NCBI RefSeq assembly: GCF_013341275.1
Contig: NZ_CP054476.1
Span: 1,873,501 to 1,937,500 of the forward strand
Length of the DNA: 64,000 bases
Direction of reading: 5' to 3'
Source of the DNA: Methyloligella sp. GL2
GTDB lineage: Bacteria; Pseudomonadota; Alphaproteobacteria; Rhizobiales; Methyloligellaceae
Part shown: positions 14,501 through 17,402 of the stretch, in pieces
Layout: each line of letters opens with the position of its first letter
Numbering within the stretch: position 1 is the stretch's first letter
Notes under the pieces: model-generated
Databases searched by the model: none
What the model was told of the DNA's origin: nothing
What the model saw: only the letters and a program-made list of their open reading frames with translations
Position numbers and translations under genes: made by a program

Positions 14501-15610
14501 GTGGCGATTTGGGGGGCAGCCGTCTTGCATCTCATCAAGACCATCACCGCAACGCACGCTCGGGCATTGTTGCAGCCGGGTGTCTTGGTTTGCCTGCTTT
14601 TCGCGGGGCTGTTGGCGGCGTTCACCGTGCCGGCCGAGGCGCGCAAAGCAGACATTCCCTATGCGGTGGCCCAGGCGATCGCCGAATCGCCCGCGCCTGA
14701 CGGGCCGGAGAAGGTGATCGTCGGCGCCTATATCAACGATATCCAGCAGCTCGACTTCAAGACCAACAATTACACCCTTGATCTCTATGTCTGGTTCCGC
14801 TGGCGCTCGCCCGAACTCGACCCCTCCAAGACCATGGAGTTCATGAACCGCTATGCCTCGGACGACAATCTGCGGCAGGAGCTGATGGACGCGCCGGAGC
14901 GCATGCCCGACGGCAGCCTCTATTCGATCCTGCGCTATGAGGGGCGCTTCTCCACCAAATTCCACCTGGAGAAATATCCCTTCGACACCCAAGGCATGAC
15001 GGTGATCATGGAGGACACGCTCTCCGGTGCCGACAGCCTGATCTATGTACCGGATGGGGAAAGCCCCATTGCCATCGATCCGGTGATCACCCTGCCCGGC
15101 TTCACCGTGGGCAAGCCGGTCATGCAGGTCACCACCAAGACCTATCCGACCAATTTCGGCGATCTTTCCGTGGCCGATGCGGAGCCCTATTCCCGCGTCG
15201 TCCTCTCCGTGCCGGTGACGCGCCCCGTGGTGGCGATGTCGATCAAGGCCTTCGTGCCCATCGCCCTGATCATCGTCTGCGCCTCGCTCGTCTTCTTCGT
15301 GCGGCCGCTCTATGTGGAGGGGCGCATCGGCCTCGGCATCACCGCCCTCCTCACCCTCGTGGCGCTGCAGCTCTCCTCGACCTCGTCGCTGCCGGATGTC
15401 GATTATCTGATGATGCTCGATAAGATCTATCTGCTGGCTTACCTGTTCATCATCCTGGCGCTGACCCGCATCGTCGCGACCTCCTGGAAGGGCGAGGATG
15501 TCAGCTATCAGGACGCCATCACCCGCACCGACCGGCGCTGGGTTTTCTGGCTGCTGCTGGCTTATGTGGCCGGCAATGTCATCGTCGCTGGCACCACGCT
15601 TTGGGCGTAG
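14501..15610 (+). CDS. Prokaryotic pentameric ligand-gated ion channel (Cys-loop receptor homologue)
   Basis: A 369-residue inner-membrane protein with the layout of GLIC/ELIC-type channels. An N-terminal signal sequence (about 20-47, AEA cleavage site) leads to an extracellular beta-sandwich domain (about 70-245) with IVGAYINDIQQLDF, LDLYVWFRWRSPELD and the Pro-loop signature YPFDTQ (159-164, the FPFDxQ of eukaryotic receptors, without the cysteines). Four TM segments follow: M1 about 248-268, M2 about 275-297, M3 about 304-326, M4 about 346-367. M2 aligns without gaps to GLIC from a glutamate (Glu273, -2') to the LP at its end, which suggests a cation pore. The ligand is unknown. The start is the GTG at 14501; a TTG at 14525 is an alternative. 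It stands alone next to tRNA-Arg. Confidence 0.85.
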   Translation: MAIWGAAVLHLIKTITATHARALLQPGVLVCLLFAGLLAAFTVPAEARKADIPYAVAQAIAESPAPDGPEKVIVGAYINDIQQLDFKTNNYTLDLYVWFRWRSPELDPSKTMEFMNRYASDDNLRQELMDAPERMPDGSLYSILRYEGRFSTKFHLEKYPFDTQGMTVIMEDTLSGADSLIYVPDGESPIAIDPVITLPGFTVGKPVMQVTTKTYPTNFGDLSVADAEPYSRVVLSVPVTRPVVAMSIKAFVPIALIIVCASLVFFVRPLYVEGRIGLGITALLTLVALQLSSTSSLPDVDYLMMLDKIYLLAYLFIILALTRIVATSWKGEDVSYQDAITRTDRRWVFWLLLAYVAGNVIVAGTTLWA

Positions 15611-15642: not shown

Positions 15643-15719
<77 letters not shown>

Positions 15720-15759: not shown

Positions 15760-16065
15760 TTAATGGGTCCAGCGGTCGGGCCGGCCGTATTTGAAATTCT
15801 CCGCATAGGATTTGGGGCGGATCTTGCTCACACCCGGCTCTTCCAGCCGGAAGGCGATGCCGTGGCGCGTGGCGTAGGCGATGGCCTCTTCCTTGGTGTC
15901 GAAGCGCATGCGGATCTGGCGCTTGGTATCGTAGGACGAGGTCCAGCCCATCAGCGGCTCGATGACGTTGGGCGTCTCGGGCTCGAACTCCAGCACCCAT
16001 TCGTTGGTGCCGGCACGCCCCGACTGCATGGCGTTCTTGGCGGGTTTGTGAATCCGAGCGACCAT
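15760..16065 (-). CDS. Complex I accessory subunit, NDUFS4-like (ETC complex I conserved region)
   Basis: A 101-residue protein of the family that includes the mitochondrial 18-kDa AQDQ/NDUFS4 subunit, an accessory protein of complex I confined in bacteria mainly to Alphaproteobacteria. Visible: VARIHKPAKNAMQSGRAGT at the N-terminus, then NEWVLEFEP, MGWTSSYDTKRQIRMRFDTK, EAIAYATRHGIAF and the terminal YAENFKYGRPDRWTH. The start was set at the ATG at 16065 with GGGGA upstream. The upstream ATG at 16104 falls inside tRNA-Pro. It sits between tRNA-Arg and tRNA-Pro, away from the nuo genes. Confidence 0.93.
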   Translation of the reverse strand: MVARIHKPAKNAMQSGRAGTNEWVLEFEPETPNVIEPLMGWTSSYDTKRQIRMRFDTKEEAIAYATRHGIAFRLEEPGVSKIRPKSYAENFKYGRPDRWTH

Positions 16066-16089
16066 GATTTCCCCATTCTCTTGCGGCGA

Positions 16090-16166
<77 letters not shown>

Positions 16167-16308: not shown

Positions 16309-16818
16309 CTAGCGAATGGCGGCGCTTCCTGGCTGAAGCGGCGTATAGTCCACCTTATCGCCCTTTTTTATGCCGGTTTTGCGAATGGTGCCGGCGGCGA
16401 GCTCGACAATCCCAATGACCGGACCGTCGGAGGGGATCGGCGTCAGCGAGAACGGCTTGGCCCGCTCATGCACACGGTTCACCCGCCAATCGGCGCCGAT
16501 GAACACCATGTCCAGCGGGATATAGGTGTTCTTCATCCACATCTGGATCGGCTGGGATTCGTCATAGAGGAACAGCATGCCGGCATCGTCGGCGAGCGCC
16601 TGGCGGAACATCAGCCCCTTGGCGCGCTCTTCCGGCGTGACGGCGACCTCGACATTAAAACGGTAGGCGCCGGTCGCGGTGTTCAGCACCAGCGTGCCGT
16701 TGTCCATGGCGAAGCCTTGCGCCGGCCATAAAAGACCGAGGCCAAGAAGCACCAGGACGGCGAGCTGTGCCAGGCGCGGCGCCGCGAACGCGAAGCGCCG
16801 CGGCCCGATGCCGTTCAC
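16309..16818 (-). CDS. Secreted DUF192-family protein
   Basis: A 169-residue protein with an N-terminal hydrophobic signal sequence (about 16-37, ending PAQGFA) and one DUF192 domain. Family hallmarks are visible: RFNVEVAVTPEERAKGLMFR, DDAGMLFLYDESQPIQMWMKNT, IPLDMVFIGAD and the C-terminal GIVELAAGTIRKTGIKKGD. The function of the family is unknown. The start was placed at the GTG at 16818, 11 nt after the stop of the cold-shock gene; the longer open frame to 17058 overlaps that gene and is unlikely. The pair cold-shock protein/DUF192 is common in Rhizobiales. Confidence 0.88.
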   Translation of the reverse strand: MNGIGPRRFAFAAPRLAQLAVLVLLGLGLLWPAQGFAMDNGTLVLNTATGAYRFNVEVAVTPEERAKGLMFRQALADDAGMLFLYDESQPIQMWMKNTYIPLDMVFIGADWRVNRVHERAKPFSLTPIPSDGPVIGIVELAAGTIRKTGIKKGDKVDYTPLQPGSAAIR

Positions 16819-16829
16819 CTGTGAAAGGC

Positions 16830-17402
16830 TCAGTGAGAGGATGGACCGGCCACGCCCTCGGGGCGCAGCTCGGCGGCTGAGAGCCCCTTGGGCCCGTTGC
16901 CGTAACGAACCAGAACCACCTGCCCCGGGCGAAGCTCGGCGAAGCCGAAGCGCCGCAGCGTCTCCATATGCACGAAGATGTCCGAGGTCTGAGGACCGCG
17001 AGTCAGAAACCCGAATCCCCGTTGGCGGTTGAACCACTTTACGACGGCCCTTTCCCAATCGCTTTCCGGCACCACCGAGACGTGGGTCCGGTCCGGCAAT
17101 TGCGACGGATGCACCGCGGTGGAGTCATCCATCGAGATGATGCGCAAGGCCTGTAGGCCCTTGTCGCGCCGCGCCGCTTCGCAGACGACGCGGGTGCCTT
17201 CATAAGCAGTCTGGTAATTGTCTTTTCTGAGGCAGCTTACGTGCAGCAGCACGTCGGGCAAACTCTCGTCTGGGACGATAAACCCGTAGCCCTTGGATGC
17301 ATCAAACCACTTGATCGATCCGGAGACTTCAATGACCTCGAGGGTGGCGTCCTCTTCACCTCGGGTTTGATCCTCCAGATGTGGCGATTCTTTCGCCCCC
17401 AT
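16830..17402 (-). CDS. Double cold-shock-domain protein
   Basis: A 190-residue protein with two OB-fold cold-shock domains that bind single-stranded RNA or DNA. Domain 1 (about 28-95) has [19 protein letters not shown] and DVLLHVSCL; domain 2 (about 118-185) has [18 protein letters not shown] and DIFVHMETL. Both RNP-like motifs are present, although the second aromatic positions vary. Typical CspA proteins are about 70 residues with one domain; the two-domain form is usual in Alphaproteobacteria. The start is the ATG at 17402, with GGGGGAG 8 nt upstream. A longer open frame to 17675 has no ribosome site or conserved sequence. Confidence 0.92.

Follow-up and report, generated by a model that had tools for sequence, protein, structure and literature searches.

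The window analysed here, the whole stretch of 64,000 nucleotides, carries at 14501..15610 on the + strand a gene for a subunit of a pentameric ligand-gated ion channel (pLGIC, or Pro-loop receptor); all features of this gene given below lie on the same + strand. The open reading frame is real and encodes 369 amino acids from its GTG, but translation could just as well begin at an in-frame TTG (14525), which follows a GGGGGG run by 9 nt. With either start a signal peptide would precede the mature domain, probably occupying 14501..14641 and ending at about A47, with a hydrophobic stretch followed by PAEA; this region is variable among orthologues. Upstream lie genes for cysteine synthase, 3-mercaptopyruvate sulfurtransferase and cystathionine beta-lyase, then an SDR gene, so the neighbourhood is as it was described in the original prediction. 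Downstream, on the opposite strand, are a tRNA-Arg (15643-15719) and, judged by eye only, an NDUFS4-type complex I subunit-like small protein (15760-16104) and a DUF192-like protein (16309-17058). Only tRNAs were found by Rfam near the channel gene. A plasmid or mobile origin of the gene was rejected, as plasmid matches reached only 23-31% and the GC content of the gene equals that of its flanks.

Sequence and predicted fold show the protein to be a true Pro-loop receptor and a relative of the human neurotransmitter-gated ion channels, unremarkable within its family, in agreement with the original assignment as a pLGIC homologue. The NCBIfam models TIGR00860 (1.2e-14) and NF033918 (3.4e-11) were matched, both under the curated cut-off. 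The HMM comparison proposed earlier gave matches to the transmembrane (TM) model Neur_chan_memb (PF02932, 2e-4) and to the ligand-binding model Neur_chan_LBD (PF02931, 5e-3), but both under the gathering score; these sub-threshold scores reflect divergence, not doubt. Sequence matches in the PDB reached 8e-13 (GlyR/GABA-A chains, ELIC or GLIC chimaeras), and a profile built from 15 orthologues gave matches to 5.6e-24.

The seven most conserved Pro-loop receptor positions listed in PMC4795631 are each occupied by the residue expected or by one of the substitutes listed there (Y159, P160, D162, F201, R241, P253, P298). The predicted Pro-loop YPFDTQ was found at residues Y159-Q164 (14975..14992; alignment and PMC4795631 Table 1), and its F/Y-P-x-D motif in the beta6-beta7 loop is Y159-P160-F161-D162, with the Pro present in all alignment rows. 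Likewise invariant across all rows is the pre-M1 arginine R241 (15221..15223), which aligns with GLIC R192. The beta9 aromatic is F201, the M1 proline P253, the basic 0' residue R275 and the proline of the M2-M3 loop P298; the predicted LP turn after M2 is L297-P298. The cysteine pair flanking the Pro-loop, the strict eukaryotic criterion, is absent (aligned positions T152 and M166), so, as a small correction to the earlier name "Cys-loop receptor", the protein is a Cys-less Pro-loop receptor.

An AlphaFold2 model of the monomer, made with 39 family rows, had a mean pLDDT of 93.9; in it a beta-sandwich extracellular domain (ECD) leads into four TM helices arranged as in pLGICs (residues 243-266, 272-294, 305-328 and 334-368), the number that had been expected. 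The predicted periplasmic ligand-binding beta-sandwich, delimited by the model's strands and aligned to GluCl, GABA-A and GLIC chains, spans 14711..15220. Model and alignment place M1, with the conserved P253, at 15227..15298 and the M2 pore helix at 15314..15382; in the model M3 occupies 15413..15484 and M4, after a very short M3-M4 loop with no intracellular domain, 15500..15604. Foldseek returned 1111 PDB chains at E <= 0.001, the 50 listed all being pLGICs. VIA-align of model residues 20-323, covering both the ECD and the TM part, gave Z scores of 25.5 for GluCl and 25.1 for GABA-A beta3, in the receptor group with the best structural scores, and 24.9 for GLIC, which was superposed over 281 of 311 residues at 2.1 A.

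An extracellular beta domain had been predicted correctly, but two features had been missed: a shortening by 18-22 residues from strand beta2 to loop A, and the largely retained pocket positions of ELIC type that are treated below. The shortened stretch WRSPELDPSKTMEFMN (14801..14848) runs for 16 residues from the Trp at the end of strand beta2 to the loop A Asn, compared with 34 in GLIC and GABA-A beta3, 35 in alpha7 and 38 in ELIC, and the W-x-P turn (W72-x-P74 in ELIC) and the strand beta3 region are absent. Loop A is retained, its E-F-M-N aligning with ELIC E77-F78-I79-N80 (E113 = E77, M115 = I79). The model supports the same overall fold despite the loss of this turn and strand region. 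The inventories of Tasneem et al. 2004 (ART-LGICs; PMC549065) and Jaiteh et al. 2016 (Pro-loop receptors; PMC4795631) cover the same superfamily and conserved residues, and the former counts W82 and P84 as fairly conserved, bacteria included; a form without the W82/P84-equivalent turn is undescribed in the text compared. A description of the short form was not found in the literature, of which our coverage was incomplete, and an earlier one is possible.

The segment was mapped on an unrooted tree from which the columns of the trait had been removed. Its 63 rows, 53 with the short segment and 10 with the long one (GLIC, ELIC, GABA-A beta3, alpha7 and six bacterial proteins), came mainly from short-type profile searches, so these numbers are biased. 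Short versus long segment was a single change, with support of 100/98 and recovery in all 200 bootstrap trees, and GABA-A beta3 lies across this branch from the channel protein. As far as found, the protein represents a strongly supported bacterial branch with a short ECD, common and apparently structurally unstudied; what is new here is the short form that marks the branch; all relatives of known structure that were checked have the segment. Within the branch no solved structure turned up: the best chain with the short-type profile was that of ELIC (4.8e-34), and entry 6fl9, which we take to be sTeLIC, was seen only as a match in the transmembrane domain (TMD). Because the tree is unrooted, the segment may have been either gained or lost. 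Tentatively, and as a possibility that we rate well below even, the short form could be a separate, old, Pseudomonadota-predominant line, with the beta3/W-x-P region added once toward GLIC, ELIC and the animal receptors.

In another search, with a long-type profile (A3) against 398 sampled Pseudomonadota genomes, 38 of the 43 non-redundant pLGIC genes with loci were short and 5 long by profile score, a count dominated by several related families and obtained with profiles that include some of the counted sequences. Type was assigned by score because a W-x-P regular expression misfires on the beta1-beta2 loop of proteins fused to periplasmic binding proteins (FDP...N). Many relatives of about 700-790 aa (L083:256-2385, L078, L081, L091, L092 and similar) are pLGICs of the short type whose N-terminal part is long and, in L083, matches type I periplasmic binding proteins of the branched-chain amino acid type (E to 2e-21). 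With its trimmed ligand domain, the short branch offers a direct test of the minimal receptor domain needed for pore gating.

The position of the gene after the sulfur-amino-acid operon and the SDR gene had been taken as a possible, purely positional hint of a metabolite ligand. Among 20 related loci, this neighbourhood was common only to Methyloligella halotolerans, in which genes for a LysR protein and an alpha/beta hydrolase stand between the SDR gene and the channel; distant relatives have no neighbour in common. With the neighbourhood confined to this one relative and the others differing, the positional hint carries no weight. The sulfur-metabolite context was rejected as a conserved link, the gene order being absent from Methyloceanibacter and from distant relatives. 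A sensor of sulfur metabolites tied to the upstream cysteine/methionine genes is accordingly very improbable, even though the channel follows the SDR gene on the same strand after 62-86 bp, with no terminator-like site found between them, and cysteamine opens ELIC, which has a similar pocket (PMC9674596). In three Methyloceanibacter-like genomes (L033:6707-7828, L034:6929-7873, L035:1237-2247) an Abhydrolase_3-type esterase gene lies directly before the channel gene, identified by Pfam match for L033 and L035 and by similarity for L034.

The M2 segment from -2' to 23' (15317-15394) has E-2', G-1', R0', G2', T6', L9', A13', Q15' and P23'. The original alignment with GLIC held as an ungapped match over these 26 residues (BLOSUM 31, with 0 of 5000 shuffles as high), but GLIC was the least similar of the references, with 6 identities compared with 8 for ELIC, 10 each for nAChR alpha7 and GABA-A alpha1, 12 for GlyR alpha1 and 13 for GABA-A delta. 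The observations that E-2' is kept as in GLIC and that GLIC H11' is replaced by Leu were both correct. Position -2' is acidic in all 25 clade members (E in 20, D in 5), and R0', G2', T6', L9', V12', A13' and P23' are invariant among them; in ELIC the acid is at -1'. The acidic ring favours cation selectivity, which we take as suggestive only: the residues just before M2 0' are no predictor of selectivity in prokaryotes (PMC4795631).

An anion-selective channel, with a pore like those of GlyR and GABA-A despite the -2' acid, would be in keeping with the 12-13 identities to GlyR and GABA-A delta, with the GLGIT core and G2', and with the M1-M2 linker. From the M1 aromatic pair to 0' this linker has eight residues, as in GlyR, and so is of anion-receptor length, two residues longer than the six of GLIC and ELIC. 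Animal anion receptors have Pro or Ala at -2', however, where every clade member is acidic, and we regard anion selectivity as unlikely. A sister relation to the animal anion receptors, considered from the M2 similarity, was rejected, as trees of the TMD only (few columns) and of the full-length proteins place the clade elsewhere.

The ELIC-type pocket was compared at Y38, E77, I79, E131, F133, Y175 and F188, which correspond here to Y, E, M, E, T, Y and Y; E77, Y175 and F188 are presumed by us to be pocket positions. Four of the seven are identical, two conservative and one, the loop B aromatic F133, lost to Thr; with an ECD background identity of 20% the chance of the four identities is 0.034, which is weak for seven chosen positions. 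GLIC matches none of the seven. In loop D, Y96 (14786..14788) corresponds to ELIC Y38 and to a Tyr of GABA-A beta3 and is Tyr in 24/24 of the clade. In loop B, E171 (15011..15013) aligns without a gap with ELIC E131 and the Glu of GABA-A beta3 and is present in 23/24. Loop C, with the motif YPTNFG, extends in the alignment from Y215 (ELIC Y175) to Y230 (ELIC F188, Tyr in GABA-A beta3) at 15143..15190; Y215 is kept in 23/24 of the clade, and Y or F stands at the Y230 position in 24/24. PMC9674596 names Y38, I79, E131 and F133 as agonist-pocket residues of ELIC, E131 being the counterpart of E171. The loop B Glu is kept in only 16 of 29 other short-branch sequences, so a reading in terms of amines would hold at the level of the clade at best, and a link with methylamine use was not found in the literature looked at.

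The main proton-sensing residues of GLIC, as given in PMC5760087, are replaced in the channel protein: E35 by N, H235 by L, E243 by T and H277 by S; the D32 position also has no titratable equivalent. The earlier suggestion that ligand or gating may differ from GLIC is supported by these replacements, and GLIC-like proton gating was rejected on the absence of the main sensor residues. A channel gated mainly by pH as in GLIC, without an orthosteric small-molecule ligand, might still draw on the acids kept at GLIC E26, D31 and -2' (as D, D and E) and at D122, and GLIC is among the structural matches. With the acids at E26, D31 and -2' kept, some influence of pH is also conceivable in the favoured reading. 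Yet the key sensor E35 is Asn, and the conserved pocket residues of the clade are absent from GLIC, which makes this reading quite unlikely. With six of the seven ELIC pocket positions identical or conservative and the main GLIC sensors replaced, a small molecule, possibly an amine, is favoured over pH as the putative opener.

A divalent-ion site in the short ECD, in place of an organic pocket, would instead make the protein a DeCLIC-like channel that is regulated by calcium or ions or has osmotic relevance; DeCLIC itself is opened by removal of calcium (PMC9897478). Acids E171-D172 and D185, conserved in the clade, and in most members D221 of loop C, could form such a site, and among the named relatives the nearest is a methylotroph that is halotolerant. 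The loop D and loop C aromatics, however, are conserved as in ligand pockets, and DeCLIC was absent from the best 60 matches of the short-type profile search; we do not think this reading likely.

With some caution we lean towards a homopentameric channel that faces the periplasm, is probably selective for cations and opens on binding a small ligand, possibly an amine. Five identical subunits, assumed because the genome has a single pLGIC gene, would surround a pore lined by M2, and the beta-sandwich would face the periplasm once the signal peptide is cleaved. A small molecule may bind between subunits in a pocket like that of ELIC and GABA-A, made of Y96, E113, M115, E171, Y215 and Y230; with E171 holding it, this ligand would most likely be a small primary amine or resemble an amino acid. 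Its binding would then be signalled through the D162-R241 pair of the Pro-loop and the M2-M3 loop to a gate at L9', and the open pore would pass cations by way of the -2' ring.

As a prokaryotic Cys-less pLGIC the protein resembles ELIC in its full-length fold, R0', L9' and most of the pocket positions compared, and differs in the low ECD identity and in a beta2-loop A stretch that is 22 residues longer in ELIC. With GLIC it shares the fold, the Pro-loop, the pre-M1 Arg and E-2', but it is 18 residues shorter between beta2 and loop A and has the two extra linker residues. The GABA-A, glycine and GluCl receptors are similar in M2 and linker length and have the PDG motif, the loop B Glu and the loop C Tyr; in contrast to them, the channel protein has no Cys pair, M3-M4 domain or W-x-P turn and is acidic at -2'.

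Close orthologues were found in Methyloligella (75-76% identity in M. halotolerans) and in most sampled genomes of the Methyloceanibacter-like sister genus, and relatives of 39-51% identity occur in scattered Alphaproteobacteria, Elusimicrobia, Planctomycetota and Halobacteriovoraceae. The M. halotolerans orthologue, together with the gene order common to both, makes a Methyloligella the most likely host. Of the 385 genomes sampled from the class, 12 had a pLGIC of any kind by the orthologue profile; the channel gene was the only one found in its own genome. According to PMC4795631, no unicellular pLGIC has a known biological role. The host lineage is methylotrophic, and most of its sampled genomes retain the gene. 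Named isolates among the relatives (Methyloligella halotolerans and several Methyloceanibacter strains) make knock-outs more practical than uncultured sources would. Sister-genus genomes (L028, L030; G008, G010, G014, G016) often have a second, distant pLGIC (~20-25% identity), absent from the genome of the window. Two tandem pLGIC genes of the family, with some 59-60% and 39-40% identity to the protein studied here, occur in two genomes (L036:7887-10090, also L013/L026; L049:165-2322); such paralogues could form heteropentamers, so heteromers are possible elsewhere in the family. The reading frame of the orthologue is interrupted by a frame change or stop in Methyloceanibacter superfactus (L037/L014/L029) and in L042/L017/L027, through decay or an assembly error.
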